Shown: positions 18,840-34,279 of the stretch, in pieces
How the letters are laid out: the number at the start of each line of letters is the position of its first letter
Position numbering within the stretch: position 1 is the first letter of the stretch
From: Gammaproteobacteria bacterium
GTDB lineage: Bacteria > Pseudomonadota > Gammaproteobacteria > Enterobacterales > Aeromonadaceae
Assembly (NCBI GenBank): GCA_018222825.1
Contig: JAAEZO010000008.1
Location: 1-40,145 of the forward strand
Length of the DNA stretch: 40,145 nt
Reading direction: 5' to 3'
Position numbers and translations under genes: made by a program
The notes under the pieces: model-generated
Seen by the model: the letters and a program-made list of their open reading frames with translations, nothing else
Databases searched by the model: none
What the model was told of the DNA's origin: nothing

Positions 18840-18940
18840 CGTCACCCTCGCGAAGGCGGGGGCCAGTGCCTTTGCAGGCGACTCACCGTCTGACCGTTCT
18901 GCGCCACAGGTCCTGGATTCCCGCCTTCGCGGGAATGACG
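18840..18940. repeat. Inverted pair of REP-like palindromes
   Basis: Two arms in opposite orientation. The left arm 18840-18865 contains CGCGAAGGCGGG and the right arm 18914-18940 contains CCCGCCTTCGCGGGAATGACG. Each arm contains its own small palindrome, and the pair could fold into one long hairpin. The core resembles the widespread REP/REPIN type of intergenic repeat seen in many proteobacteria. The left arm has diverged from the right. It lies directly after the asnS terminator. Confidence 0.75.
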
Positions 18941-18990
18941 GCAGAACCACTCTTTGATCTGGCAACAGGCGGCGCCGTAGTATCAGGGAT

Positions 18991-19088
18991 GACAAAGGGA
19001 TCTGCTCCGCCGACCTTCCGTTTCAGGGACGAAACGGAGAGCGTACATGGAGGTATTCACAGCGAGTCGACGGAGCGGGCCCTTTGTC
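18991..19088 (+). repeat. Structured repeat, copy C
   Basis: First of four copies of an apparently related element. The outer stem pairs 18991-19009 (GACAAAGGG and GCTCCG) with 19071-19088 (CGGAGC and CCTTTGTC). An inner hairpin TCCGTTTC / GAAACGGA (19017-19024 with 19031-19038) follows GCCGACC. The conserved part GAGCGTACATGGAGGTAT, five variable bases, then GCGAGTCG closes it. It sits between asnS and the purine permease, whose 3' ends converge, 38 bp from the permease stop. See copies A, B and D. Confidence 0.8.
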
Positions 19089-19125
19089 CGACGTTTACAC
19101 TATCCCACCTCACGCCTAATCATCA

Positions 19126-20418
19126 TCAGATCCCGAAGGCAAATTTCAGCGCAAACATGGCCGCCAGTGCCCAGACCACGGGGCTGACTTCGGCGGCACG
19201 ACCGGCCAGCAGTTTGACCGCCACAAAGCTGATAAAGCCGAAGGCGATGCCGTTGGCGATGGAAAAGGAGAACGGCATCATCACCAGCACCACCACGGCA
19301 GGCACCGCTTCGGTGATGTCATCCCAGTGCAGATGGCTAAGCTGGCCCATCATCAGCACCGCCACATACACCAGGGCGCCGGCGGTTGCATAGGCCGGCA
19401 CCATGCCCGCCAGCGGCGAGAACAGCAGTGCGGCAATAAACATCAGGCCGGTCACCACGGCGGTGAGGCCGCTGCGTCCGCCCACGGCCACACCGGCGGC
19501 ACTTTCCACATAAGAAGTGGTGGTCGAGGTACCCAGTACCGAGCCCGCGATGGAGGCGGAGCTGTCGGCCAGCAGGGCACGGCCCAGACGTGGCAACCGG
19601 CCTTTTTCATCCAGCAGTTTCGCGCGCTGAGCCACCGCAACCAGGGTACCGGAAGTATCGAACAGGTCGACAAACAGAAAAGCGAAAATCACCGACAGCA
19701 TGCCGATATTGAAGGCGCCGGCGATGTCCAGCTGCATAAAGGTCGGCATGATGGACGGCGGCGCAGAGACGATGCCCTGATACTGAATGTCGCCAAACGC
19801 CACACCCAGTCCGGTAATAATCAGAATACCGATCATTACCGCACCACGCATGCCGCGAGCGGCCATGCCGATGATCAGGAAAAAGCCCAGCGTCGCCAGG
19901 CCCACCTGCAGGCTGGTGACATCACCCAACCCCACCATGGTGGCCGGATTACCAACGATAATGCCGGCATTCTTGAGGCCAACCAGCGCCAGAAACAAGC
20001 CAATACCGGCGGCAATGCCGATTTTCAGCGGGCCGGGAATGGAGTTGATGATCCATTCACGCACCTTGAACAGGCTCAGCAGCACGAAGATACAACCGGA
20101 AAAGAACACCGCGCCCAGGGCGCTCTGCCAGCTATAGCCTTCGGTCAGTACCACAGTGTAGGTAAAGAAGGCGTTCAGACCCATGCCCGGTGCCAACGCA
20201 ATGGGATAGTTGGCCACCAGCCCCATGATGAAGCAGCCGATGGCCGCCGCCAGACAGGTCGCCACAAATACGGCGCCATAATCCATGCCCGCCTCGGACA
20301 AAATCGCCGGGTTGACGAAGATGATATAGGCCATGGTCAGAAAGGTGGTGATGCCCGCTACCACCTCCTGCCGCACGTTAGTACCTAATTCCTTCAGGTG
20401 AAAGTATTTATCTAGCAT
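19126..20418 (-). CDS. Purine permease, NCS2 family AzgA-like
   Basis: Inner-membrane proton-coupled uptake protein for purine bases (adenine, guanine or hypoxanthine), resembling the E. coli GhxP/PurP group. It is 430 aa, the usual family length. About 12-14 membrane segments are visible. Recognisable motifs are GITTFLTMAYIIFVNPAIL near residue 22, APGMGLNAFFTY near 78, a conserved TSTTTSYVESAAGVAVGGRSG region near 285, and LFDTSGTLVAV in between. The substrate cannot be assigned by eye. A good promoter lies upstream, but no ribosome site precedes the ATG. Its 3' end converges with asnS. Confidence 0.9.
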   Translation of the reverse strand: MLDKYFHLKELGTNVRQEVVAGITTFLTMAYIIFVNPAILSEAGMDYGAVFVATCLAAAIGCFIMGLVANYPIALAPGMGLNAFFTYTVVLTEGYSWQSALGAVFFSGCIFVLLSLFKVREWIINSIPGPLKIGIAAGIGLFLALVGLKNAGIIVGNPATMVGLGDVTSLQVGLATLGFFLIIGMAARGMRGAVMIGILIITGLGVAFGDIQYQGIVSAPPSIMPTFMQLDIAGAFNIGMLSVIFAFLFVDLFDTSGTLVAVAQRAKLLDEKGRLPRLGRALLADSSASIAGSVLGTSTTTSYVESAAGVAVGGRSGLTAVVTGLMFIAALLFSPLAGMVPAYATAGALVYVAVLMMGQLSHLHWDDITEAVPAVVVLVMMPFSFSIANGIAFGFISFVAVKLLAGRAAEVSPVVWALAAMFALKFAFGI

Positions 20419-20453
20419 AGGGGGGATCTACTGTATGAATAAAAGAACTTAAA

Positions 20454-20482
20454 ATTATCGACTTAAAAGACCCCTTTGGCAA
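20454..20482 (-). promoter_or_regulatory. Sigma-70 promoter of the purine permease
   Basis: Read leftwards, TTGCCA (plus-strand 20477-20482), a 17 bp spacer, then GATAAT (20454-20459). Both hexamers match five of six consensus bases. The predicted start lies about 30 nt before the permease ATG, leaving a short leader with no Shine-Dalgarno. Confidence 0.72.
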
Positions 20483-20554
20483 TCATCCTGCACCAGCGGC
20501 GGCCCGTCAGCGGCAAATAAAACGGGCTAACCCAGCTCCCCACTTCTCCCCGGC

Positions 20555-20596
20555 TTGACTACGATCAACTATCCTTCTGGTCATCGCTGTTAGGCT
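20555..20596 (+). promoter_or_regulatory. FNR-like class II promoter of torECAD
   Basis: TTGAC, TACG, ATCAA at 20555-20568 matches the FNR consensus TTGAT-N4-ATCAA in nine of ten bases. A weak -10, TAGGCT, sits at 20591-20596. The implied start near 20603 puts the box centre at -41.5, exactly the class II activator position. FNR senses absence of oxygen, which suits TMAO respiration. The -10 matches only three of six bases, so activator dependence is expected. Confidence 0.6.
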
Positions 20597-20608
20597 TCTT
20601 TCAGTGCT

Positions 20609-20634
20609 TGTCGCATGCCGTTCTTGATGCGACA
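20609..20634 (+). other. Leader hairpin in the torE 5' untranslated region
   Basis: A perfect 8 bp stem TGTCGCAT / ATGCGACA with a 10 nt loop, starting about six bases after the predicted transcription start. It may protect the 5' end or be a regulator site; no T-tract follows. Confidence 0.45.
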
Positions 20635-20705
20635 CAGGCAACTCTTTTTACTACCTACTACGCTCATGAGCAGAACACCGACTCCGGAACGTCAAGGACA
20701 TCACC

Positions 20706-20876
20706 ATGAACAAGACCCCTTCCACTCCAGCTCACTCCCGTCGCCGGGAATGGCTGACATTTCTGTTGATTACCGCGGTTTTCTTTCCCCTGCTCAGCAT
20801 AATGGCGGTGGGCGGATACGGCTTTATTGTCTGGATGCTACAGATCTTTTTCGGTCCTCCCGGTCACGGTGTATGA
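20706..20876 (+). CDS. torE: TorE/NapE-type small membrane protein
   Basis: A 56 aa single-pass inner-membrane protein. It starts MNKTPSTPAHSRRREW, has a hydrophobic segment FLLITAVFFPLLSIMAVGGY, and ends with FIVWMLQIFFGPPG, the strongly conserved pattern of TorE/NapE proteins of Shewanella and relatives. Its exact role is unresolved; it is usually first in tor or nap operons. AAGGA lies about nine bases before the ATG. It is followed by torC after 37 bp. Confidence 0.88.
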   Translation: MNKTPSTPAHSRRREWLTFLLITAVFFPLLSIMAVGGYGFIVWMLQIFFGPPGHGV

Positions 20877-20913
20877 CCTTCAACGCCCTTTCGATCCTTG
20901 AGCGAGAACCGCT

Positions 20914-22101
20914 ATGTTGACCTTACTTAAAAAAATCTGGAATACCCTCAAGCGCCCCCCGGTGCATATCAGCCTGGGTGTGCTGACCCTGGGCGGCTTT
21001 GTGGCCGGCGTGATTTTCTGGGGCGGCTTCAACACCGCGCTGGAAGCCACCAATACCGAAGAGTTCTGTATCGGCTGCCATGAAATGGAGGCCAACGTCT
21101 ATCAGGAGCTGCAGGAGACCATTCACTGGTCCAACCGTTCCGGCGTTCGTGCCACCTGCCCCGACTGCCACGTGCCTCATAACTGGACCGACAAGATTGC
21201 CCGCAAGATGCAGGCCAGCAAGGAAGTCTGGGGCAAGGTGTTCGGCACCATCGACACCCGGGAAAAATTCCTCGAAAAACGGCTGGAGCTGGCGCAGCAC
21301 GAGTGGGCACGCTTTTCGGCCAACGGCTCGCTCGAATGCCGTAACTGTCACGATTACAACAGCATGAACTGGGACGTGATGTCCGACGAAGCCAGGCGCT
21401 TCATGAAGCCTGCCGCCGAGCGTAACCAGAGCTGTCTCGATTGTCACAAGGGCATAGCCCACCATCTGCCGGAGCAGATGACCTTCAAGGATCCGGCACT
21501 CGACCAGCTGGAGCAGCGCGCCCAGGGGCTGAGCCCGGATGAAGGCGGCAACTACTACACCGTCAAGGCCGTCACCCTGTATCTGGATCCCGAACTGACC
21601 CAGGAAGCCGGTGAGCTGGAAGCGGCCAGCCCGGTCAAGCTGCTGGAAGAAAACGGCGACAGCGTCAAGCTGCAACTGTCCGCCTGGCGCAAGACCCGTG
21701 GTTTTGGCCGCGTGCTGTATGAAGACTTCGGCATGAACATCACCAGTCTGGTACTGGAAAAAGAAGTGGCTCAGGACGAAACGCTGGTACGAGTGCTGGA
21801 TGACGCCAAGGTGGATGAGCTGACCGGTCTGCCCTGGGAGCCGGTAGAAGTAGCCCTGTGGACCCAGCCCGGCGCCCTGCTGCCCGAAGCCGAAGACCTC
21901 TGGGGTTATGCCCGTGATACCTATCGCAGCGCTTGCAGCGTGTGTCACTCCCAGCCGGCAGAAGCACACTTCGACGCCAATACCTGGCCGGGCATGTTTG
22001 CCGGTATGGTCGGCTTCACCAACATGGATGCCGATACCCAGGCGCTGGTACTCAAGTATTTGCAGAAACATTCGTCCGACTATTCCGACGGCGCACACTG
22101 A
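20914..22101 (+). CDS. torC: TorC pentaheme c-type cytochrome
   Basis: Membrane-anchored electron donor to TorA; it takes electrons from menaquinol. It is 395 aa. An N-terminal anchor near residues 18-38 (ISLGVLTLGGFVAGVIFWGG) precedes the NapC/NirT domain with four CXXCH haem sites: CIGCH at 52, CPDCH at 82, CRNCH at 142 and CLDCH at 174. A C-terminal monohaem domain holds the fifth, CSVCH at 341. Five haems and this layout are those of TorC. In relatives the apocytochrome also acts in Tor signalling, but no torS, torT or torR is in the window. Confidence 0.96.
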   Translation: MLTLLKKIWNTLKRPPVHISLGVLTLGGFVAGVIFWGGFNTALEATNTEEFCIGCHEMEANVYQELQETIHWSNRSGVRATCPDCHVPHNWTDKIARKMQASKEVWGKVFGTIDTREKFLEKRLELAQHEWARFSANGSLECRNCHDYNSMNWDVMSDEARRFMKPAAERNQSCLDCHKGIAHHLPEQMTFKDPALDQLEQRAQGLSPDEGGNYYTVKAVTLYLDPELTQEAGELEAASPVKLLEENGDSVKLQLSAWRKTRGFGRVLYEDFGMNITSLVLEKEVAQDETLVRVLDDAKVDELTGLPWEPVEVALWTQPGALLPEAEDLWGYARDTYRSACSVCHSQPAEAHFDANTWPGMFAGMVGFTNMDADTQALVLKYLQKHSSDYSDGAH

Positions 22102-22125
22102 TCACGAGTTGACGAGGCAAAGAAT

Positions 22126-24594
22126 ATGGCAATTTCACGCAGACATTTTCTCAAGGGACTGGCCGCCAGCTCGGCAGCGGCCCTGATCGGCCAGAGCCTG
22201 CTGGTGCGCACGGCCCAGGCGGCGGTCTCCGCCGAGGGAAGCTGGAAGATGGCCGGCTCTCACTGGGGTGCCTTCAAGGCACTGGTGAAAGGGGGTGTGG
22301 TCAGCGAGGTCAAGGCCTTCGAGCTGGATAAACACCCCACCGACATGCTGAACGGCATCAAGGGACTGATTTACAACCCTTCGCGTATTCGCTATCCCAT
22401 GGCGCGGCTGGACTGGCTGAAAAACCGCGAAAACAGCGACCGTACCCAACGGGGTGACAACCGCTTCGTCCGTCTGACCTGGGACGAAGCACTCGACCTG
22501 TTCCATGAAGAACTGGAGCGCACCCAAACCCAATACGGCCCCTGGGCACTGTATGCCGGCGCCACCGGCTGGCGCCAGACCGGCCAGTTTCACAGCTGCG
22601 GCAACCACATGCAGCGGGCGGTCAACCTGCACGGCAACTTCGTCAGCAAGGTGGGCGACTACTCCACCGGTGCCGGCCAGGTGATCATGCCCTATGTACT
22701 GGGCTCTACCGAGGTATACGATCAGGGCACCTCCTGGCCGCTGATCCTGGAGCACACCAAAACCCTGGTATTGTGGGCCAACGATCCGTTCAAGAACCTG
22801 CAGGTCGGCTGGAACTGCGAAACCCACCAGTCCTACGGCTATCTGGAACAGCTCAAGGCCAAAATCGCCGACGGCAGCATCAAGGTGGTCAGCATCGACC
22901 CGGTGCAAACCAAAACCCAGGCCTATCTGGGCTGCGAACAGCTCTATATCAACCCCCAGAGCGACGTGGCCTTCATGCTGGCCATCGCCCATACCCTGTA
23001 CAAGGAAGAACTGTACGACAAGAGTTTCCTCGGTACCTACACCCTGGGTTTCGAGCCCTTTATCGACTATGTGCTGGGCAAGACCGAAGACAAGGTGGAA
23101 AGAACCCCCGAATGGGCGGCGGCCATCTGCGGCATAAAGGCCGACCGCATTCGCGAATTCGCCCGCCAGCTGGCGAGTGATCGCACCCAGCTGATGTTTG
23201 GCTGGGCCATTCAGCGTCAGCAACATGGCGAGCAGCCCTACTGGGCCGGTGCCGTGCTGGCGGCCATGCTGGGCCAGATTGGCCTGCCCGGCGGCGGCAT
23301 CAGCTATGCGCATCACTACAGCTCCATCGGCGTGCCGGCAACCAATGCCAGCGCCCCGGGCGGTTTTCCCCGCAACCTGGATCCGGGCAAGACGCCGTTG
23401 CACGACAACAACGACTTCAACGGCACCAGCCGCATTATTCCGGTGGCCCGCTGGATCGACTGCCTGCTGGAGCCGGGTGGAAAAATCCAGTACAACGGCA
23501 GTGATGTCACCTTCCCCGATATCAAAATGTGTATCTTCAGTGGCTGTAATCCCTGGCACCATCACCAGGATCACAACCGCATGAAGCAGGCATTCCGCAA
23601 ACTGGAAACCGTGGTCACCATCGATTATTCCTGGAACGCCACCTGCCGCTTCTCGGATCTGGTGCTGCCGGCCTGTACCCAGTTCGAGCGCAACGACATC
23701 GACATCTATGGCTCCTACGCCAAGCGTGGCCTGCTGGCCATGCACAAGCTGGTGGACCCGCTGTTCCATTCCCGCAGCGACTTCGATATTTTCACCGCCC
23801 TGTGCCGTCGTTACGGCCGCCATGAGGAATACACCCAAGGCAAGGACGAGCGCCAGTGGCTGGCCCAGCTGTACAACGAATGCAAGGCCGCCAACGATGG
23901 CAGCTATGCCATGCCCGAATTCGACGAGTTCTGGGAGCAGGGCTATGTGGACTTCGGTGAAGGCAGCGACTGGGTACGCCATGCCGCCTTCAGGGAAGAC
24001 CCGGAAGTCAACGCCGTGGGCACCCCCTCCGGCTTTATCGAGATCAGCAGCCGCAAAATCGGCAGCTACGGCTACGAAGACTGCAAGTCTCACCCTATAT
24101 GGATGGAAAAAACCGAGCGTTCTCACGGGGGGCCGGGCTCGGACCAGTACCCGCTGTGGCTGCAATCGGTTCACCCGGATCAGCGACTGCACTCGCAGAT
24201 GTGCGAGTCCGACGAATATCGGGCCACCTATGCGGTGCAGGGACGGGAGCCGGTGTATCTGAGCCCTGCCGATGCCGAGGCGCGTGGTATCAGCGACGGC
24301 GATCTGGTACGGGTATTCAACGGCCGAGGCCAGCTGCTGGCCGGGGCCCGAGTATCGGATCGCTTCCCGTCCGGGGTGATCCGTATTCACGAAGGTGCCT
24401 GGTACGGCCCGACCGATGCCAGCATCGGCGCGCTCGACACCTATGGCGACCCCAACACCCTGACCATGGATGTGGGCACCTCCAGACTGGCCCAGGCCCC
24501 CAGTGCCAACACCTGTCTGGTGGAAATCGAGAAATTCACCGGCCCAGTGCCTGCCGTGACCTCCTTTGGTGGTCCTGAAATGGTGGAAATTTAA
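22126..24594 (+). CDS. torA: Trimethylamine N-oxide reductase TorA
   Basis: Periplasmic molybdoenzyme of the DMSO reductase family that reduces TMAO to trimethylamine as terminal electron acceptor. It is 822 aa, within the family range. A twin-arginine signal SRRHFLKG starts at residue 4 and cleavage is likely after AQA at residue 32. The expected molybdenum-ligand serine is Ser180 in [10 protein letters not shown]-terminal cofactor motifs such as [13 protein letters not shown] are present. There is no N-terminal Fe-S cysteine motif, as expected for this subgroup. GAGG precedes the ATG. It overlaps torD by one base. Confidence 0.97.
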
Positions 24595-25241
24595 TGACAC
24601 ACAACACCACGGCAGGCGAAAGCCTGCCCCTGTCGGCAACCGAATACTGGCAACAGCAGGCGTTGCTGTGCCAGTGGTTTGCTACCCTGCTGTCGAAAGA
24701 GCTGAACGAGGCCGAGGTGCAAGCCTACCAGGCCGGCGATGCAACCCCCTTGCTGGACGAACTGGCCCTGCAGCCGGCGCTGTCCGAACCGGCCAAACGA
24801 CTGCGTCAGGCCATCGGCACCCTGTCGCTGCTGCAGCACGCGAGGCTGGAGTTGGCTGCCGACTTCGCCGGCCTGTTTCTGAGCGATGCCCGTCATGGCC
24901 CCGCACCTTATGCCTCGCTGTATCAGGACAACGGCAACTTCAATGGCCCTGCCGCCCAGCGCATGCAGCAGCGGCTGGCGGCGGCGGGTTACGCGGTGGA
25001 TGGCGACTTCAAAGAGCCGCCGGATCACCTGGCGGTGATGCTGGATTATCTGGCCGAAGGCTATCGACGACTGGCTCTGGCGTCTTCGCCTGAGGCTGAA
25101 GCCGACCTCAAGCTGTTCGTACAGCAGGAGCTGGCCAGTTGGCTGCCCGAGTTGAGCCGCCGCGCTAAAAACACCGACACCGCCAGCGACGTCTATCCGG
25201 CGCTGCTGGCCCTGGTGACGGCTTTTTGTCAGCAGCCCTGA
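24594..25241 (+). CDS. torD: TorD chaperone for TorA maturation
   Basis: Cytoplasmic system-specific chaperone that binds the TorA signal and prepares the apoenzyme for cofactor insertion before Tat export. It is 215 aa, all-helical by composition, with the family pattern EPPDHLAVMLDYLAEGYR (E(P)xDH) at about residues 141-158. The start overlaps the torA stop as TAATG, so translation is coupled. It is the last gene of torECAD, followed by a strong terminator. Confidence 0.93.
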   Translation: MTHNTTAGESLPLSATEYWQQQALLCQWFATLLSKELNEAEVQAYQAGDATPLLDELALQPALSEPAKRLRQAIGTLSLLQHARLELAADFAGLFLSDARHGPAPYASLYQDNGNFNGPAAQRMQQRLAAAGYAVDGDFKEPPDHLAVMLDYLAEGYRRLALASSPEAEADLKLFVQQELASWLPELSRRAKNTDTASDVYPALLALVTAFCQQP

Positions 25242-25268
25242 ATTATAGCCGTATTGGCATCACCCATT

Positions 25269-25295
25269 AAAAAGCCCCGCCGGAGCGGGGCTTTT
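25269..25295. terminator. Bidirectional terminator between torD and hupE
   Basis: Stem AGCCCCGC / GCGGGGCT around a CGGA loop, with four or five A before and four T after, between converging operons. It can end both torECAD and the urease operon. Confidence 0.9.
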
Positions 25296-25316
25296 CATTA
25301 GTTTGAGCGTAACGAC

Positions 25317-25880
25317 TCACATCGCGGATATCGCCGCCAGCATTCCGGCGCCCGCCATGGCTGCCCCAGTCACTCGCACTAGAGTGGCATGCCACTTGGC
25401 GGCGGCCAGCCAGCCAATGCCATGCAGCGCCACGGTCGCCACCATAAAACCGGTCACATAGCCGGTAACCAGCCGGAAAGCCGGCAGCTCGAGTCCATGC
25501 GCATTGCCGTGCAGCAGACCGAACAGGGCACAACACATCATGGTTGCAGCGGAAAAACCACCCACGCCAACCGCCAGCATCAGACCCAGCACCACCAGTG
25601 AAAGCTGAATACCGGTTTCCACACCGGCAATGCCAACCCCGCCGATGCCGATCAATGCCCCTGCCAGCATGAAACCGACAAACAGTACCGGCAACTGCCA
25701 GTGCGGCCGCTCTCGGCCTGCGACCGCCAGCATGCCCACCGCCACCATGGCCAGCAGATGATCCCAACCCAGCAAGGGATGCAACAATCCTGAAATAACC
25801 CCTTGAGTTTCATGGCCGGTATGGGCGAAGGCCAGGCCGGGAGCAAGCGCCAGCAGGCCGGTAAGCGTTTTCTTTATCAT
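25317..25880 (-). CDS. hupE: HupE/UreJ nickel permease
   Basis: Inner-membrane nickel uptake protein that supplies the urease active site. It is 187 aa with a signal peptide ending LAFA and a His-containing start of the mature part (HTGHE). Six or so membrane segments follow. The two family motifs are present: HPLLGWDHLLAM near residue 34 and FGLLHGNAHGLE near residue 119. The AAGGAGA ribosome site overlaps the ureG end, with a 2 bp gap. Such proteins are called UreJ when in urease operons. Confidence 0.93.
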   Translation of the reverse strand: MIKKTLTGLLALAPGLAFAHTGHETQGVISGLLHPLLGWDHLLAMVAVGMLAVAGRERPHWQLPVLFVGFMLAGALIGIGGVGIAGVETGIQLSLVVLGLMLAVGVGGFSAATMMCCALFGLLHGNAHGLELPAFRLVTGYVTGFMVATVALHGIGWLAAAKWHATLVRVTGAAMAGAGMLAAISAM

Positions 25881-25882
25881 GG

Positions 25883-26524
25883 TTATTCTCCTTCAATTTC
25901 AAAATCGTCGGGCAGCGGGCGCAGCATGCCTTCGCGCTGAATAAAATGGATGATCTCGGCTACACCGTCGCCGCGCATCAGGTTGGTAAAGACGAAGGGC
26001 CGCTCGCCCCGCATCCGTTTGGCGTCCCGGTCCATCACCTCCAGCGAGGCGTTAACCATGGGGGCCAGATCGGTCTTGTTGATGATCAGCAGATCGGACT
26101 TGGTGATGCCCGGGCCGCCCTTGCGGGGAATCTTGTCACCGGCGCAAACGTCAATCACATAGAGCGTCAGATCCGACAGCTCGGGGCTGAAGGTGGCCGA
26201 CAGGTTGTCACCGCCGCTTTCCACCAGCACCAGCTCCAGATCCGGGTGCCGTTCTTGCAGGGTATCGATGGCCGCCAGATTCATGGAGGCATCTTCACGG
26301 ATGGCGGTATGCGGACAACCACCGGTTTCCACCCCCATGATGCGATCTTCGCTCAGCGCCTGATGACGCAGCAGAAACTCGGCATCTTCCCGGGTGTAAA
26401 TGTCGTTGGTGACCACCGCCAGGCTGTAGTGCTGGCGAAGGGCCAGACACAGCTGGCGCAACAGCGCGGTCTTGCCCGAGCCCACGGGCCCGCCCACGCC
26501 CACGCGCAAACATTGTGTTGTCAT
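25883..26524 (-). CDS. ureG: UreG urease accessory GTPase
   Basis: GTPase that powers nickel delivery to apo-urease in the UreDFG complex. It is 213 aa starting [12 protein letters not shown]. The P-loop GPVGSGKT is at residues 12-19, the nickel-binding CPH of this family is present in [15 protein letters not shown], then [15 protein letters not shown] and the guanine-specificity NKTD. The ATG at 26524 has GGAG six bases upstream; the frame stays open to 26569 but that part overlaps ureF. It starts 2 bp after the ureF stop. Confidence 0.97.
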
Positions 26525-26526
26525 GA

Positions 26527-27192
26527 TTAACTCCGAAATAAACGAGAATATTGGGTTTCGTGCAGGCAACTGGCCTGAACCTGTCCCGGCAGGCTCAACC
26601 CCAGCTGCTCATCGCTTAGGGTGGCTGCCAGCCGGTGGCTCTCGAGCAATGCCGGCTTCAGCAGCAGCAACAACCGCTGGGCCGCCGTCTGCCCCAGCGG
26701 CAGGGTTTTGCTGGCCACCGTCAGCTGGTTTTCCAGCCAGCTCCACAGCCAGCCCAGCGCCGCCCATGGCGGGCTCAGGCCCCAGTGGCGGGCCGCCAGG
26801 CTGTATACCGCCATAAAAGCCGGTTGGGGTGGCAGCGTGGAGACATCGAGCCCCTGCCCCTTGAGCAGCCGCGTCAGCGCCATGGCTTGTTGTTCGTCTT
26901 CAAACAGTAATTCGCGGGTTTCCCGGCTGGCACGCAGAAAATCGCTCCACATCGCCAGCTGCTCGCGGTCGCCCCGCGCGTCGGCATCCGCCAGCCGCAG
27001 CAATACCGGCACATCCAGATACGCCAGCCCTTGCAGCATACCGCCGAGCCAGCTCTGCAAATCGGCTTCATTCTTGACCCAACCGAGCTCAATCGCCGAT
27101 TCAAGACCGCTGGAGTAGGCAAAGGCCCCTATCGGCAGCGCCGGGCTCGACAGGTGCAACAGCGCCAGCAGCTGATCACCATCAGTGGTCAT
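26527..27192 (-). CDS. ureF: UreF urease accessory protein
   Basis: Helical adaptor that links UreD and UreG during nickel insertion. It is 221 aa, with the typical start [21 protein letters not shown], then [13 protein letters not shown] and a long helical body. The ATG at 27192 lies inside the histidine codons at the end of ureE, an 11 bp overlap. The frame remains open upstream in ureE, but those residues are nonsense for this family. Translation coupling to ureE is likely. Confidence 0.94.
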
Positions 27193-27667
27193 GGCTGTGG
27201 CCTTGTCCGTGGCTATGGCTATGGCTATGGCTATGACCATGATGCCCCAGATAGGCACCGGACTCGGGATCGAAGGGGGCCGAGCCCGCTTCCAGCCGCA
27301 GGCCCAGATGCTCCGCCAGATGTTCCAGCACATGGTCGGGCTGAAACCGCAGCCAGCGCTCGCCCAGCTGCAGGGTGACATGGCGATTGCCCAGGTGATA
27401 ACAGGCGCGGGCAAAGCCGGCCCAGTCGTCGGCATGGGCGGTGATCACCGGCTCTTGCTCGGCCACCACTTCAAACACCCGGCCCTCTTCGCTTTGCAGT
27501 TTATCGCCCTGGGCCAGCACCTGACCCCGCTCCAGAAACAGCCCCAGCTCGGTGCCGTTATCACTGGTCGCCTTGAAGCGACCCTTCTGCCGAAGTTCAT
27601 AAGGCAGCGTCAGCCGGTCTTCGGCCGGGTGGTCGCTCTGACCCAGATTTTGGGTAATTCTCAACAT
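27182..27667 (-). CDS. ureE: UreE nickel metallochaperone with His-rich tail
   Basis: Dimeric nickel carrier that hands Ni to the UreDFG-urease complex. It is 161 aa. An N-terminal peptide-binding-like domain is followed by a nickel-binding domain with ITAHADDWAGFARACYHLGNRHV and FQPDHVLEHLAEHLGL. The C terminus has a His tail [20 protein letters not shown] with ten histidines. The tail is coded by near-perfect 6 bp repeats. AGGAG precedes the ATG. It follows ureC after a 139 bp gap that holds structured repeat copy A. Confidence 0.96.
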   Translation of the reverse strand: MLRITQNLGQSDHPAEDRLTLPYELRQKGRFKATSDNGTELGLFLERGQVLAQGDKLQSEEGRVFEVVAEQEPVITAHADDWAGFARACYHLGNRHVTLQLGERWLRFQPDHVLEHLAEHLGLRLEAGSAPFDPESGAYLGHHGHSHSHSHSHGQGHSHDH

Positions 27668-27690
27668 TGACGGCTCCTGTAGTGTGGAGA

Positions 27691-27793
27691 CGGTGACAGG
27701 AAACCGCTAAGCCGACCGTGACATGCCACGGATGGCATGTCCGAGCGTACATGGATGTATCTACCGCGTGTCGGCGTGCGGTTCCTGCCACCG
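27691..27793 (+). repeat. Structured repeat, copy A, between ureC and ureE
   Basis: Outer stem of about 16 bp pairs CGGTGACAGGAAACCGC (27691-27707) with GCGGTTCCTGCCACCG (27778-27793), one mismatch and one bulge. Inside it are GCCGACC / GTCGGC, an 8 bp hairpin ACATGCCA / TGGCATGT (27721-27728 with 27733-27740), and the conserved GAGCGTACATGGATGTAT, five variable bases, GCGTGTCGG. It lies inside the urease operon, so on the minus-strand mRNA its complement would be transcribed. Confidence 0.82.
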
Positions 27794-27806
27794 GCTGTCC
27801 TCATCA

Positions 27807-29513
27807 TTAAAACAACATATACAGCTGTGCCAGCGGCAGTACTTCGGCCGGCTCACACGTCAGCAGTTCGCCATCACACCGCACCTCGTAGGTCTGGGCA
27901 TCCACTTCCAAATGCGGGGTGGCGTCGTTATGGATCATGTCCTGCTTGCGGATATTGCGGGTGTTGCGGCAGGCCACCAGCCGGCGACTCAGCCCCAGCT
28001 CACCGGCCAGATCCCGTTTCAGCGCCGCCTGACTGACAAAGGTCAGACTGGTGGCGGCGGCCGCCAGCCCCTGGGCCCCAAACATGGGCCGGTAGTGCAC
28101 CGGCTGGGGGGTGGGAATGGAGCCGTTGATATCGCCCATGGGCGCATAGGCGATGGCGCCGCCCTTGAGGATAAGCGCCGGCTTGATGCCGAAAAAGGCC
28201 GGGTTCCACAACACCAGATCGGCCAGCTTGCCCACTTCCACCGAGCCCACCTCGTGAGCGACGCCGTGAGTAATGGCCGGATTGATGGTGTATTTGGCGA
28301 TATAACGCTTGGCGCGAAAATTGTCACAACCCAGAGCCTGGTCTTCGGGCAACAGGCCGCGCTGCTGTTTCATCTTATGGGCGGTCTGCCAGCTGCGGCA
28401 CACCACTTCGCCTACCCGCCCCATGGCCTGACTGTCGGAAGAGATCATCGAGATCACCCCCAAGTCCTGCAGAATATCTTCGGCGGCGATGGCCTCCTTG
28501 CGAATACGGGAGTCGGCAAAGGCCACATCTTCGGGAATATTCGGGTCCAGGTGGTGGCACACCATCAGCATGTCCAGATGCTCGTCCACGGTATTGACCG
28601 TGTAGGGCCGGGTCGGATTGGTGGACGACGGCAACACGTTGGGCAGGCTGCAGGCCTTGAGGATATCCGGCGCATGACCGCCGCCGGCGCCTTCGGTGTG
28701 ATAGGTATGAATGGTGCGGCCCTTGAACGCCGCCAGGGTGTCATCCACGAAGCCGGACTCGTTAAGGGTGTCGGAATGAATGGCAATCTGCACGTCGTAT
28801 TCTTCCGCCACCGACAGGCAGCAGTCGATGGTGGCCGGCGTCGAGCCCCAGTCTTCGTGCAGCTTGAGGCCCATGGCCCCCGCATCCAGCTGCTCGCGCA
28901 GCGGCCCGGGCTGACTGGCGTTGCCCTTGCCGAGAAAGCCGAAGTTCATCGGAAGCTGGTCGGTGGCCTGCAGCATGCGGGCCAGGTGCCAGGCCCCCGG
29001 GGTACAGGTGGTCGCCTTGCTACCGGTGGCCGGGCCTGTGCCGCCGCCAATCATGGTGGTAATGCCGGAGCAGATGGCCTCTTCTATCTGTTGCGGGCAG
29101 ATGTAATGAATATGGGAGTCCACCCCCCCGGCGGTGAGGATCATGCCCTCACCGGCAATCACTTCGGTGCAGGCACCGAGGTTGATGGTCACGCCATCCT
29201 GAATGTCCGGATTACCGGCCTTGCCGATGGCAGCAATGCGACCCTTGTTGAGGCCGACATCGGCCTTGACGATACCCCAGTGATCCAGGATCAGAGCATT
29301 GGTGATCACCGTGTCCACGGTGTCGGCATCGCCGAGCTGGCTCTGGCCCATGCCGTCGCGAATCACCTTGCCGCCGCCAAAGGTCACTTCGTCACCGTAG
29401 CGGCTGTAATCCCGCTCGACCTGAATCCACAAGTCGGTGTCGGCCAGCCGGATTCGATCGCCGGTGGTGGGGCCGTACATGTCCGCATAGGCGGTGCGGC
29501 TGATCTTACTCAT
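27807..29513 (-). CDS. ureC: Urease alpha subunit UreC
   Basis: Catalytic subunit that hydrolyses urea to ammonia and carbamate with a di-nickel centre. It is 568 aa. Every catalytic residue is at the classical Klebsiella position: His134 and His136 in DSHIH, carbamylated Lys217 in GLKLHEDWG, His246, His272, Cys319 and flap His320 in VCHHLD, and Asp360. GGGAGG precedes the ATG at 29513, which overlaps the ureB stop by 8 bp. No sign of decay. It is part of ureDABC. Confidence 0.99.
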
Positions 29514-29826
29514 GGGTCCCTCCCAACGGGCCCATCACCTCACCTCGAAAACCATAGACCCTGCGCTTTCCACCCAGCGCCACCAGGCTCACGGTACGAT
29601 GTTGCCCCGGCTCGAAACGCACGGCGGTGCCGGCGGCAATGTCCAGCCGAAAGCCACGCGCCAGCTCACGGTCCAGGCTGAGTGCCGGATTGACCTCGGC
29701 AAAGTGATAATGCGAGCCCACCTGTATGGGCCGGTCGCCGGTGTTGGCGACGCTGAGTGTGCGCCGTTCGCGGCCGGCGTTGAGCTCGATGTCGCCCGCG
29801 GCCAGTTGAATTTCTCCCGGAATCAT
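29506..29826 (-). CDS. ureB: Urease beta subunit UreB
   Basis: Structural beta subunit of the (alpha beta gamma)3 urease. It is 106 aa starting [19 protein letters not shown]. The family motifs [17 protein letters not shown] and [16 protein letters not shown] are present. The ATG at 29826 has AGGA about six bases upstream. The frame stays open far upstream through ureA, but that extension overlaps ureA and is not real. It overlaps ureC by 8 bp. Confidence 0.97.
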
Positions 29827-29834
29827 CTCGTTTC

Positions 29835-30137
29835 CTATTGAATGGGATCGTGCAGGGTCACCAGTTTGGTGCCGTCGGGAAAGGTGGCTTCTACCTGCAC
29901 CTCGTGCACCAGCTCGGCAACGCCGTCCATCACCTGCTCCCGGCTCAGCCAGTTGCGGCCCTCGCCCATCAGCTCGGCCACGGTGCGCCCGTCGCGCGCC
30001 CCTTCCATGATGGCGGCCGACAGATAAGCCACCGACTCGGGATAATTCAGCTTCAACCCCCGGGCCAGACGGCGCTCGGCCAGCAGGGCGGCGGTAAACA
30101 GCAGCAGCTTGTCCTTTTCTCTTGGACTCAATTCCAT
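29835..30137 (-). CDS. ureA: Urease gamma subunit UreA
   Basis: Small structural subunit of urease, exactly the usual 100 aa. It starts [20 protein letters not shown], with [20 protein letters not shown] and [20 protein letters not shown] as family signatures. GAGG lies seven bases before the ATG. It is separate from ureB, as in most bacteria, and starts 9 bp after ureD. Confidence 0.98.
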
Positions 30138-30146
30138 CTTTTTTCC

Positions 30147-31013
30147 TCAGGTCAGCCAGATACGGGGAATACAGGCCGGGCGTGCCAGCAATAGTGGACG
30201 GATCAGCGCCCAGGCCTGCCACATGCCGTCGCGGCAGCGATTCATGTCATCGCCCAGATAGCGCACCAGCAGCACGCCCAGCCGTTCGGTCACGGTAAAA
30301 TCGGGGCTGGGCAGCGCCTCACGCAATGCCGTGTTCAGCGCCTCATTCAGTCCGGGTCCACTCGCCAGCAAGGTGCCGAATACACACCCACCTGCCAGCC
30401 CCACCCGGCTGCGGCGAATGTCGGTGTCACCGTTCAATTGCAGCCGTTCATTGAGCAGCATGCGCCCATCGCGCCACAGGCGAATGCGCTGGCTCAGGCT
30501 ACCCTCATCAAATATTTCGCCGGCAGCGGGACGACCCAGACAAACCAGATCCCAGCCGATAAAACGGGCATCGCGACTCAGCTCGATGCGAGTATCCAGC
30601 ACCGCATTGGCACCGCGATAGACGATGGTTTCCTGGGGTAGCCATTCGCATTCGGCGTTATCACTCAGTTGCAACAATACCGACTGCCCCTGAGCCACAC
30701 CGTCGCTGTCCCGGCCGTAGATTTTTCCCGCCGAGGGAATGGTCAGCAGACTCTGGCTGCCGGCCTCGGCGGCTACCTCGATATGCAAGCGATCGCCGGA
30801 TACCAGACCACCGGGCGGATGCAGCACATAAAGATGACAGACACCGCCTTCCGGATAAAAAGGCCGCTGAATGCGCAGGGGACCGGCAAACACCAGTTTT
30901 TTGAGCCGGGTCTTGCCCGCCGCCGGCACCAGCCGAAGCTTGAGGTGCGCCCGCCACTCGCGATCGGGCCCGTAGCCACGGGTTGCAAGAGTCGGCGCAT
31001 CACTGAAAGTCAT
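30147..31013 (-). CDS. ureD: UreD urease accessory protein
   Basis: First accessory protein to bind apo-urease; it forms the nickel tunnel with UreF. The body is typical: [19 protein letters not shown], then [22 protein letters not shown], and the conserved end PRIWLT. The start is uncertain. The frame is open to 31046, with ATGs at 31034 and 31013 and none with a good ribosome site. The sigma-54 promoter upstream predicts an RNA start near 31041, which excludes the 31046 start and leaves only about 7 nt before 31034. I therefore chose 31013, giving 288 aa ([15 protein letters not shown]). Confidence 0.88.
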
Positions 31014-31051
31014 AAGCAGAGCCGTTGTTATCATGCAAGTACACAATCCAA

Positions 31052-31068
31052 CGCAAAATCAGGGCCAA
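31052..31068 (-). promoter_or_regulatory. Sigma-54 promoter of the urease operon
   Basis: Read leftwards, TTGGCCCTGATTTTGCG. It has GG, exactly 10 bp, then GC, the invariant -24/-12 spacing, and matches TGGCAC-N5-TTGC in nine of ten specified bases. The predicted start is near 31041. With the IHF site and two NtrC-like sites upstream it forms a complete nitrogen-regulated promoter. Confidence 0.78.
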
Positions 31069-31086
31069 CTATGAAATAGCCTTTAA

Positions 31087-31099
31087 AATCAATTTATTA
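31087..31099. promoter_or_regulatory. IHF-like site in the urease promoter
   Basis: Plus strand AATCAATTTATTA fits the IHF consensus WATCAA-N4-TTR without mismatch, inside an A/T-rich tract. It is centred about 52 bp before the predicted sigma-54 start, between promoter and activator sites, where IHF bends DNA in such promoters. Confidence 0.65.
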
Positions 31100-31151
31100 A
31101 TTAAAAAAACACCCTCAAGAAGAAACCTGAACCGAGAGACAGGTGCGAAGA

Positions 31152-31168
31152 CTCACCATCACGGTGCA
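31152..31168 (-). promoter_or_regulatory. NtrC-like site 1 (proximal) of the urease promoter
   Basis: Read leftwards, TGCACC, GTGAT, GGTGAG, ten of twelve matches to the NtrC consensus TGCACC-N5-GGTGCA. Its centre is about 119 bp before the predicted start, close to the -108 of glnAp2. Confidence 0.65.
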
Positions 31169-31182
31169 ACAAGCAGGGCAAG

Positions 31183-31199
31183 CTTGCCAATATGGTGCA
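31183..31199 (-). promoter_or_regulatory. NtrC-like site 2 (distal) of the urease promoter
   Basis: Read leftwards, TGCACC, ATATT, GGCAAG. One half-site is perfect and the other is poor (eight of twelve overall). The centre is 31 bp upstream of site 1, three helical turns, almost the spacing of the two glnAp2 enhancer sites. It overlaps a 12 bp palindrome GGCAAGCTTGCC at 31177-31188. Confidence 0.5.
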
Positions 31200-31202
31200 A
31201 TC

Positions 31203-31238
31203 AGCGGGTTCCCCCTCGGGGAAGACTCGGTCACCGCT
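31203..31238. other. Extended hairpin upstream of the urease control region
   Basis: TTCCCC / GGGGAA around CTC (31209-31223) lies inside a wider AGCGG / CCGCT pairing. It lies between the prpD terminator and the NtrC-like sites. No T-tract is present; the role is unknown. Confidence 0.35.
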
Positions 31239-31264
31239 ATCTCTCAGAGCATAGGCCTCAATAA

Positions 31265-31288
31265 CAAAAAAGGCCCCACAAGGGGGCC
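31265..31288 (-). terminator. Rho-independent terminator of the prp operon
   Basis: Read leftwards, GGCCCC, a short loop and GGGGCC are followed by six T. It stands about 65 bp past the prpD stop and separates prpBCD from the urease control region. Confidence 0.85.
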
Positions 31289-31353
31289 AAGGCACTGATC
31301 ACGCGTAACAAGCCGGACTGAAGCGAACATTCGGCTCATGGTCTGGCTAAGGC

Positions 31354-32805
31354 TCAGTTAATCACCAACAACGCCATGAATTCGTTAACCGGAGTTGCCT
31401 CAAGCCGCTGCCGATCGAGGCACAATGCCAGAATCTGCCGACAGCGCGCCGGCGGAAAACGGGTTTGCAGGTTGCGCATGAACTTCTGCTCCAGCACCGG
31501 TATCGCCTCGCTCCGGCGGCGGCGATGCCCGATGGGATACTCCACTTCTACCTTGTCGGTGTGACTGCCGTCCGTAAAGAACACCTGAATGGCGTTGGCG
31601 ATGGAACGCTTGTCGGCTTCAAGGTATTCGGCGCTGTAGCGCGGCTCTTCCACTATGTCCATTTTGTTGCGCAGGATATCGATACGGGGATCGGCGCGGT
31701 GAAAGTCGTCTTCATAGTGTTCTGCCGCCAGATCGCCATAAAGCATCGGCACCGCCACCATGTACTGCAGGCAATGATCCCGGTCCGCCGGGTTGGCAAG
31801 TGGGCCCTCCTTGGAAATAATGCGAATGGCCGACTCGTGGGTACGGATTTGAATTCGGTCGATGTCTTCGAGCCGGTCCTTCACCTGCGGGTGCAACTGC
31901 ACCGCACATTCCACCGCAGTCTGGGCATGAAACTCGGCGGGAAAACTGAGCTTGAACAGCACGTTTTCCATCACGTAGCTGCCAAAGGGCTGATTGACCT
32001 GAAGGCTCTTGCCCTTGAACAGCACGTCATAAAAACCCCACTGGGGCGCCGTGAGTACCGAAGGCAGCCCCATCTCGCCCTTCATGGTGATCATGGCCAG
32101 TCGCACCGCGCGGCCGGTGGCATCCCCCGCCGCCCAGGATTTTCGCGAGCCGGCGTTGGGCGCATGACGATAGGTCCGCAGGGCGCCGCCGTCGGCCCAA
32201 GCCTGCGACAGGGCATCGATAATCTGCTCGCGATTGCCGCCCAGCATCCGGGTGATGACGGCGGTGGAGGCCACACGCACCAGCAGCACATGATCCAGCC
32301 CCACCCGGTTGAAACTGTTTTCCAGCGCCAGCACGCCCTGAATTTCGTGAGCCTTGATCATGGCGGTGAGCACGTCACGCATGGTGAGGGGCGGCTTGCC
32401 CTCGGCTACCGCCACCCGGCTCAGGTAATCGGCGATGGCGAGAATGCCCCCCAGATTATCCGACGGATGGCCCCACTCGGCTGCCAGCCAGGTGTCGTTG
32501 AAGTCCAGCCAGCGGATAAGGCAGCCGATGTTGAAGGCGGCAGTCACCGGATCCAGCTCGTGGGAGGTGCCGGGCACCCGGGCGCCGTGTTGCACCCTGG
32601 TGCCCGGCACCAAGGGCCCCAGATGCTTGGTGCATTCGGGAAAGCGCAACGCGAGCAAACCACAGCCCAGGGTATCGGCCAGGCAGTGCCGGGCGGTGTG
32701 ATAGGCCTCATCCGAGATGATCTCGGTATCGGCCACATAGTCGGCAATGGTAACCAGTAATTGATCGGGCTCAGGTCTCTGGTTCAGATCAACATTGGTG
32801 ATCAT
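31354..32805 (-). CDS. prpD: 2-Methylcitrate dehydratase PrpD
   Basis: Dehydrates 2-methylcitrate to 2-methyl-cis-aconitate in propionate catabolism. It is 483 aa, equal to the E. coli enzyme, with very high resemblance: [20 protein letters not shown], the [14 protein letters not shown] stretch, and [20 protein letters not shown]. The start at 32805 (MITNVDLN) has AAGGA seven bases upstream and is preferred over one five codons earlier. It is the last gene of prpBCD, 361 bp after prpC, and that gap holds two structured repeats. No acnD or prpF is next to it, so this is the PrpD-type pathway. Confidence 0.97.
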
Positions 32806-32872
32806 GATGTGTTCCTTCAAATCAGCGGTGTTACTGGATAATGTGGCTTGCTGGAAAAGCTGCCGAGTCGGC

Positions 32873-32966
32873 CAAAGGGTCTGCTCAGTCGACGCGCTAT
32901 CAATAAATCCATGTACGCTCTCCGTTTCGTCCCTGAAACGAAAGGTCGGCGGAGCAACTCCCTTCG
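32873..32966 (-). repeat. Structured repeat, copy D (inverted), between prpC and prpD
   Basis: Read leftwards it begins with CGAAGGG and TGCTC, then GCCGACC, a hairpin TTCGTTTC / GAAACGGA (C to T change tolerated as a G-U pair), the conserved GAGCGTACATGGATTTAT, five variable bases, GCGCGTCGAC, and closes with GAGCA and CCCTTTG. The 8 bp inner stem is nearly that of copy C, 13.8 kb away and in opposite orientation. Confidence 0.8.
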
Positions 32967-33040
32967 TCCTCCTTCGAGCTTCACATCACCTGCTGGTGAT
33001 GCCAACACCGAACTCCGGCGTCAAAAAGAGGCGGCAGGGA

Positions 33041-33121
33041 TTGCCTCTGCCGACCATCACATGCCATGGATGGCATGTGTGAGCTTACAGGGAGGTACTT
33101 GTAGCGTGTCGGAGGAGGCAA
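33041..33121 (+). repeat. Structured repeat, copy B, between prpC and prpD
   Basis: Outer stem TTGCCTC (33041-33047) with GAGGCAA (33115-33121), then GCCGACC, hairpin ACATGCCA / TGGCATGT (33059-33066 with 33071-33078), GAGCTTACAGGGAGGTAC, five variable bases, GCGTGTCGG. Side hairpins GAGGC...GCCTC flank it on both sides (from 33029 and to 33133). It differs from copy A in the outer stem but keeps the pairing. It lies about 75 bp from copy D in opposite orientation. Confidence 0.78.
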
Positions 33122-33166
33122 CCCGGTTGCCTCTTTCACGCGATAACAAACCGGCAGGCTGTCGGC

Positions 33167-34279
33167 TCACCGTTTCTCTATCGGTATCCACTCTTGGGGG
33201 GGCGGGCCCACATAATCGGCATTGGGCCGAATGATACGGTTATGGGCCCGCTGCTCCATGATGTGTGCCGTCCAGCCGGTGACCCTACTGAGAACGAAAA
33301 TCGGGGTGAACAGCTTGGTCGGTATGCCCATGAAGTGATAGGCGCTGGCATGATAGAAGTCGGCGTTGGCGAACAGTTTTTTCTCCCGCCACATCACCTC
33401 CTCTACTCGCTCCGAAATCGGATACAACACTCGATCGCCCGCCGCTTCACTCAGCTTTTTGGCCCAGGGTTTGATCAGCGCATTGCGCGGATCCTTCACC
33501 GTATACACCGCATGACCGAAGCCCATGACTTTCTCTTTACGCTTGAGCATCTCCAGCAGCGCGGCCTCGGCTTCATCCGGCCCGCTCCACTGCTCTATCA
33601 TCGCCATCGCCGCCTCGTTGGCGCCGCCATGCAGCGGGCCGCGCAGGGTGCCGATGGCGGCGGTCACCGCCGAATGCAGATCGGTGAGGGTCGAGGCACA
33701 GACCCGTCCGGCAAAGGTAGAGGCGTTGAATTCATGCTCCGCATACAGCACCAGCGAGCAGTTCATCACCCGTACATCAAGCTCGGGCGGGGCTTCGCCG
33801 CGCAACATATGCAGAAAATGGCCGCCGAGGCTGTCGTCCTCGAGGGCGGTGTCGATACGCACGCCGTCGTGCGCATAGCGATACCAGTAGCAGAGCATCG
33901 AGGGCAGCAGCGACAGCAGGCGTTCGGCCGCCTCCTGCTGTTCGCCGAACTTGTGTTCGGTTTCCAGGTTGCCAAGCACGGAGCAACCCGTACGCAGCAC
34001 ATCCATCGGATGCGCCGACGCCGGTATCAGTTCAAGCACGGTACGCAACGCCGCCGGCAGACCACGATTGGCGCGCAGCCGTGCCTTGAAGGCATCCAGC
34101 TCCCCTTTATTGGGCAGATAGCCCTTCAGCAGCAGAAAAGCCACCTCTTCGAATTGGGCATGAGCGGCCAGATCGGCAATATCATAACCGCGATAGGTCA
34201 GCCCTGAGCCGGTCTTGCCCACGGTGCACAGGGCCGTCTGGCCGGCGGTCTGGCCGCGTAATCCTTCGGCGTTAGTCAT
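33167..34279 (-). CDS. prpC: 2-Methylcitrate synthase PrpC
   Basis: Condenses propionyl-CoA with oxaloacetate to 2-methylcitrate; a citrate synthase homologue. It is 370 aa. Catalytic regions are visible: [12 protein letters not shown] (first active-site His) near residue 213, [13 protein letters not shown] (second His) near 250, and the C-terminal arginine-rich [18 protein letters not shown]. The ATG at 34279 has a perfect AAGGAGG upstream; a start seven codons earlier is inside prpB. It overlaps the prpB stop by 8 bp. Confidence 0.97.

Follow-up and report, generated by a model that had tools for sequence, protein, structure and literature searches.

What are the four structured repeats that lie between positions 18990 and about 33130 of contig JAAEZO010000008.1, a 40,145-nt stretch of an Aeromonadaceae genome (the whole stretch is called the window below), and what might read them? 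An initial annotation had described four copies with paired but variable stems around a constant core, and had not recognised the family. We find that the copies belong to a family of ~100 members in this genome, in which base pairing is maintained whilst the letters change, and that the family almost certainly belongs to the YPAL/RU-2 and TwoAYGGAY type of mobile, structured non-coding elements. The explanation of the whole that we favour, and hold with reasonable confidence, is that this mobile element presents paired CsrA-binding hairpins at mRNA 3′ ends.

Anatomy of the repeat

All four copies were found where the initial annotation had placed them. Copies w1 (18990–19089, + strand, 92.7 bits) and w2 (27691–27793, + strand, 75.8 bits) are singles. 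Copies w3 (32872–32967, − strand, 83.0 bits) and w4 (about 33030–33130, + strand, 78.4 bits) are the left and right arms of one divergent heterodimer of ~270 bp (32867–33136, no strand), joined by a strandless linker at 32968–33029. An arm is ~100–115 nt long. Its outermost part, a variable stem, is followed inward by a GCCGAC/GTCGGC stem, then by hairpin 1, GAGC, hairpin 2, a TTNAC bulge and finally GCG. The two apices read CAGGGACG (19024–19031) and CATGGAGG (19046–19053) in w1, CACGGATG (27727–27734) and CATGGATG (27750–27757) in w2, CAGGGACG (32928–32935, − strand) and CATGGATT (32906–32913, − strand) in w3, and CATGGATG (33065–33072) and CAGGGAGG (33088–33095) in w4.

This anatomy keeps much of the initial description and alters some of it. 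Two unrelated inner-stem sequences are indeed present among the window copies. The proposed constant core, GAGCGTACATGGA with the bases that follow, is shared, but is itself the second hairpin: it has the form TACA-NGGA-TGTA, and its stem covaries with CCCA/TGGG, TCCA/TGGA and CACA/TGTG. Nor are its letters the same in all four copies, since w4 has GAGCTTACAGGGA and the second apex of w3 has lost its closing G. The supposed five free bases are the TTNAC bulge ahead of the closing GGC, and the spacing is not quite identical, as hairpin 1 varies in length by 1–2 nt between stem types.

Extent of the family and covariation

The source genome is a 3.19-Mb draft in 330 contigs (G000 in the codes used below for genomes). 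A covariance model made from the copies gave 102 matches genome-wide at E ≤ 0.01, with 150 of the 990 candidates scored; in the stretches fetched around the matches, removal of 4 of 109 model matches as complementary-strand overlaps left 105 non-overlapping copies. A loose core pattern with up to three mismatches matched 39 times in G000, as against 0 for the reversed pattern. Matches occur in 23/23 genomes of the genus and in 29 of 41 relatives from 7 of 19 genera (the source genome included in both counts). With a model built from other genera and 12 candidates scored per genome, 71/369 genomes of the class were matched, from 64/272 genera. In a sample of the phylum, whose out-of-class share is not given, this model matched 32 genomes out of 398, all 32 listed under the order or the class of the source genome. 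Oceanisphaera, Zobellella, Oceanimonas, Halopseudomonas, Rheinheimera, Arsukibacterium, Lysobacter, Arenimonas and Xanthomonas are among the matches listed. Phages and plasmids, each queried with one copy, gave no blastn match; one viral contig was matched by an exact pattern.

The initial annotation had argued that the compensatory changes point to selected structure, beyond simple copying, a claim that is now backed by covariation tests as well as by the changes at orthologous sites described below. For 21 copies, the covariation score was 0.239 against 0.103 ± 0.009 after shuffling, with double changes in 14/31 pairs. For the copies from other genera (130 rows, of which 9 were removed as identical to leave 121 distinct copies), it was 0.691 against 0.171 ± 0.006, with slid controls at or below 0.114; 28/30 pairs had double changes, against a shuffled mean of 23.7, and 90.0% of cells were paired. 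As this alignment was fitted to the covariance model, it favours the structure. The number of pair types, one of five measures taken, showed no excess (91 versus 89.1 shuffled). The stem columns of hairpin 1 hold only 0.1–0.5 bit of sequence information, yet are 83–100% paired.

Conservation of the apical loops

Both apices have the form C-A-N-G-G-A-N-G, with C, A, G, G, A and G at 97–100% where the loop is aligned (121 other-genera copies). Part of this constancy is a product of sampling in hairpin 2, since the pattern used to fetch the named loci contains that hairpin; hairpin 1 is absent from the pattern. In the G002 alignment, the hairpin 2 columns were shifted by one and were excluded from the loop analysis. 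In five sets that overlap in part, two CANGGANG motifs are present in 79/105, 103/121, 64/71, 119/137 and 87/97 of the distinct copies, and nearly all copies with two motifs have a GGA–GGA gap of 19–22 nt. The G000 stretches, selected for holding copies, amount to 714,882 stranded bases; they contain 76 close pairs of CANGGANG, 0 of which lie outside the repeats.

The source genome has one csrA gene, of 63 aa, with Leu4 and Arg44, the RNA-contact residues of CsrA. The ANGGAN hexaloop closed by C-G that the family carries, with the second apex of w3 as an exception, is the CsrA/RsmA recognition motif, for which the SELEX form RUACARGGAUGU is also given in the relevant passages of PMC3791407. 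Binding of CsrA is likely and accounts best for this anatomy, and a CsrA-family protein is quite probably the ligand of the hairpins.

To follow the loops after insertion, copies were matched across genomes through their flanks, a pair needing an identity of ≥ 0.80 between the copies and of ≥ 0.70 in each of the two 70-nt flanks; 22 of 94 candidate pairs were kept, the other 72 failing the identity, flank or gap thresholds. The fixed apex letters had changed at 4/264 positions, as against 18/87 for the N positions (p = 9e-9), 60/1008 for the rest of the copy and 411/3080 for the flanks, a rate drawn from flanks required to be at least 70% alike. Hairpin 2 stems had changed at 6/88. In loop 2 alone, the fixed letters had changed at 0/132 positions and the N at 12/43 (p = 1.3e-8). 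When the pattern-fetched loci were left out, the difference was retained (4/132 versus 10/43, p = 1.5e-4). The 22 pairs are not all independent, as some have a copy in common or represent the two arms of one unit, and these p-values are therefore optimistic. Given how rarely the apex letters change relative to N and to the flanks, the loop seems to be maintained once a copy has inserted: the positions available for CsrA to read stay fixed, whilst most of those it would ignore drift.

Relation to known elements

The element is already known piecemeal under three older names: YPAL/RU-2, TwoAYGGAY and Ysr224. The printed RU-2/YPAL sequence (PMC2759123) folds into the same two-hairpin core and holds paired CANGGANG. 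The window copies share that core and align to RU-2 with scores of 26–50, above 300/300 shuffles for each of the four, so the family is not, as first thought, an unrecognised one. The likeness extends to the two hairpins with the printed RU-2 apices CAAGGATG and CATGGATG, the GAGCC…TATTTACGGCGT core (a GAGCC…GGCGT frame) and an enclosing stem. The differences lie in the outer-arm sequences, in the length (167–168 bp for YPAL/RU-2, against ~100–115 nt for a window arm and ~270 bp for the dimer), in the frequent divergent heterodimers of the window family and in its loops other than AYGGAY. The YPAL section of a review (PMC2229807) describes a mobile, intergenic element with filled and empty sites and target duplications of 3–26 bp, ‘co-translated’ (the review's word) with upstream genes.

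TwoAYGGAY (RF01731) likewise combines two GGA terminal loops in one multistem fold. Among 20 loci scanned, all from other genomes, copies in two, both from one genus of the same order, exceed its gathering score of 43 (L487, 44.7 bits; L467, 44.0 bits), and a third, L490, falls short at 36.8 bits. The whole window has no match to the model at gathering, and w3/w4 has none at E ≤ 10. AYGGAY is present in both loops of w2 and not in those of w1, w3 or w4; the rule for the superfamily is ANGGAN. Because they lie below the TwoAYGGAY model, we file the window copies as a variant of a YPAL/TwoAYGGAY superfamily. TwoAYGGAY has been proposed, from motif matches, to bind CsrA (the TwoAYGGAY entry in PMC4333381), and the corresponding entry of Weinberg 2010 classes it as a probable RNA that is probably not cis-regulatory, from the human gut, gamma-Proteobacteria and Clostridiales; neither entry mentions dispersal or mobility.

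The third name, Ysr224 (RF02770), was matched by the complementary strand in two others of the 20 loci above its gathering score of 70 (G607, 82.4; G718, 74.7), with further copies matching below it. According to the part of PMC12112432 that deals with it, Ysr224 is multi-copy and expressed in Yersinia ruckeri, and PMC9029176 mentions both CsrA and Ysr224. In our literature searches, no paper was found joining YPAL with TwoAYGGAY, Ysr224 or CsrA, and a search by raw repeat sequence gave no title on such a repeat among the matches listed.

Two other resemblances were considered. The likeness to ERIC suggested initially does not hold: local alignment to the printed RU-1/ERIC sequence gave scores of 14–17, reached by 67, 183, 235 and 130 of 300 shuffles, and that sequence has no CANGGANG on either strand. 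In the CsrB and RsmX-Y-Z small RNAs, paired GGA hairpins are CsrA ligands. Those RNAs are single many-site genes with their own promoters, in contrast to the ~100 dispersed two-site copies seen here; a scan of 32820–33180, covering the window dimer, returned no promoter-like or terminator-like match.

Placement and divergent dimers

Genes were called with a simple, purpose-written gene finder. None of the 105 G000 copies is inside a gene. Among 199 units from four genomes with genes on both sides, 88 are in convergent, 103 in tandem and 8 in divergent gaps, compared with 114, 233 and 129 for background gaps of ≥ 100 nt from these loci. This tally excludes 34 units located at the end of a contig or of a stretch, includes two partly fetched genomes (G015 and G019) and counts sites common to several genomes more than once. 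The copies thus sit downstream of genes and rarely in divergent gaps. Both apices are intact in 45/48 convergent and 37/44 sense singles.

In divergent pairs the arms are mostly ~78 nt apart (G000 and G002) and almost never have the same stem. With dimers of unreadable stem excluded and an arm spacing limit of 150 nt, same-stem dimers numbered 0/17 in G000, 0/19 in G002, 0/27 in G015, 1/16 in G019 and 0/31 in other genera, against expectations of 4.1, 8.0, 7.2, 4.0 and 2.8, respectively; that is, the stems differ in 109/110 divergent dimers. The shortage in the other-genera set alone is not significant (P = 0.06). One further pair, at L134, has same-stem arms 168 nt apart and so lies past the limit of the count. 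Differently stemmed arms would allow each arm to fold alone, and a divergent arrangement would leave one arm sense whichever direction transcription arrives from.

Units of the w3/w4 type recur elsewhere at 70–86% identity, and the w3/w4 site is found without the unit in G007 and G012, where divergence is too high for duplications to be visible.

Some dimers have a terminal motif, ATACCAATC…GATTGGTAT, outside them (L235, L237, L250, L252 and L257). A motif like ATACCAATC lies no more than 100 nt from the left end in 10/24 G000 dimers, 5 of which have it at both ends, against a background of 32/1200 stretches; it is absent from 47/57 singles and 14/24 dimers in G000, from 47/50 G002 units and from 82/84 other-genera units. 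Inverted pairs of the motif, spaced 600–3500 nt apart, number 21 in our list. The terminal motif outside some dimers suggests that, in this lineage, these are nested in a miniature inverted-repeat transposable element (MITE) derived from an insertion sequence (IS).

Evidence against CsrA recognition of sense transcripts

Several observations weigh against the reading of the copies as CsrA sites in host mRNA. The main one, and it counts against a simple sense-mRNA role, is that the copies show no significant preference for the sense or the antisense strand of host genes: tandem-context singles are 44 sense and 29 antisense in the four genomes (p = 0.10), and in G000 the figures are 16 and 14. 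In the window, w2 and w4 run antisense to the genes beside them, and antisense singles are mostly intact too (21/29). Ysr224 is modelled on the opposite strand, which has TCC in the loops and no GGA. The loops themselves are less clear-cut than the pooled counts imply. In 108/114 other-genera copies loop 1 has T as its last N, so not every N is free; loop 1 alone gives a weaker contrast (fixed 4/132, N 6/44, p = 0.017) that is not significant with looser thresholds (p = 0.078); and the hairpin 1 stem, with 8/351 changes, is nearly as well kept as the fixed apex letters. Letters outside the loops are also conserved (GAGC, the bulge and GCG), which suggests another recogniser. Finally, csrA was found in 66/71 repeat-bearing and 247/298 repeat-free genomes of the class (p = 0.04, hand count), a weak association in which kinship is a confounder; one genome that is 98% complete, G235, has copies but lacks a csrA match.

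Alternative explanations

The most probable alternative is an element like the REP sequences and REPINs, moving as single-stranded DNA: a transposase would read the folded DNA strand and so keep the loops and the bulge, and host RNA would play no part. The high copy number, the absence of significant strand bias, the conserved letters outside the loops and the presence or absence of units at given sites all fit such an element. So do the divergent heterodimers, since REP families are described in the REP portion of PMC3733652 as extragenic, with divergent dimers and a preference for heterodimers, features that the family shares with REP/BIME/REPIN elements; its arms, however, are ~3 times longer and its loops are under selection. 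No linked transposase emerged: there was no model match within ~1.5 kb at E ≤ 1 in the neighbourhoods of 30 of the 68 listed Y1-transposase genes (other transposase families were not searched), and G009, G012 and G022 hold 49, 80 and 42 copies with no Y1_Tnp match. The drift of the N letters at shared sites, where the fixed apex letters are kept, also counts against it. We regard this alternative as unlikely.

As candidates in their own right, REP sequences with their RAYT transposases were rejected: the arms have no GTAG or CGTC tag beside a 20–40 bp palindrome, and no RAYT gene is linked to the copies among the 30 Y1 genes. The only RAYT-like Y1 transposase gene found (L228:400–1300) is apparently flanked by its own GTAG-type repeats, which are unrelated to this family.

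Less probable still is that the copies are merely robust 3′-end hairpins, acting as mRNA stabilisers or in the manner of terminators, with incidental ANGGAN loops. Downstream placement and the well-kept stems at shared sites would suit such a role, as would the remark in the YPAL section of PMC2229807 that YPAL might affect how stable upstream transcripts are. Stability alone, however, would not fix C-A-N-G-G-A-N-G whilst stem sequences vary freely, and the window dimer lacks a terminator-like match. That the copies are themselves a MITE of an IS with terminal inverted repeats starting ATACCAATC, which would be compatible with the CsrA reading, is very improbable despite the enrichment near the left ends of G000 dimers, as most G000 singles and dimers and nearly all G002 and other-genera units lack the motif, and the ATACCAATC ends are more likely a later carrier within one lineage.

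Further features of the window and of individual copies

Copy w1 has convergent genes as neighbours, and w2 occupies the gap between an ORF at 27182–27667 (−) and a ureC-like ORF at 27807–29513 (−), antisense to each. The sole Rfam match in the window at gathering is 5_ureB_sRNA (29079–29362); because it is antisense within the ureC-like ORF, it may merely mirror coding similarity. A CGTC-type-like palindrome, TTCCCGCCTTCGCGGGAATGACG, is present just upstream of w1 (18918–18940).

At seven places in the G000 stretches, a common insert of ~45 nt, starting near CCGGAAAATGCTCCTGCC, occupies the hairpin 1 apical loop (L255:4552, L259:321, L261:7771, L271:720 (−), L272:768, L275:391 and L059:226 (−)), as if a further small element targeted that loop. 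A different, longer insert, beginning GGGGCAGCTTG, breaks hairpin 2 at L051:240–403, L069:1639–1803 and near L059:226 (−). In one G015 copy (L180:283–329), orthologous to L059:375–456, both hairpins have been lost and the outer stem kept.

Proposed role and implications

Returning to the CsrA reading, RNA of the GGA strand would fold into the outer stem and two hairpins, displaying two ANGGAN hexaloops 19–22 nt apart, the layout in which a single CsrA/RsmA dimer takes hold of two GGA sites. Having settled downstream of genes, the copies would ride in read-through transcripts, and the likely effect would be to place bound CsrA at mRNA 3′ ends. Together they could constitute a genome-dispersed titration load on CsrA and, locally, could alter 3′-end stability. 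That a dispersed CsrA sponge is the selected role is plausible, although we would put its chances at somewhat less than even.

Our broadest proposal is equally tentative: YPAL, TwoAYGGAY and Ysr224 may be one class-wide mobile element that supplies hundreds of paired CsrA-binding hairpins, acting as a dispersed CsrA/Rsm sponge and rewiring 3′ ends, with heterodimers that evolved to let every arm fold and always to offer one in sense. Three catalogue entries from separate fields would then be merged. If this is true, a mobile element scatters the binding sites of a regulator, at ~200 per genome, across many families of one class; CsrA titration would have to be counted differently, and an old class of ‘junk’ repeats would gain a function.

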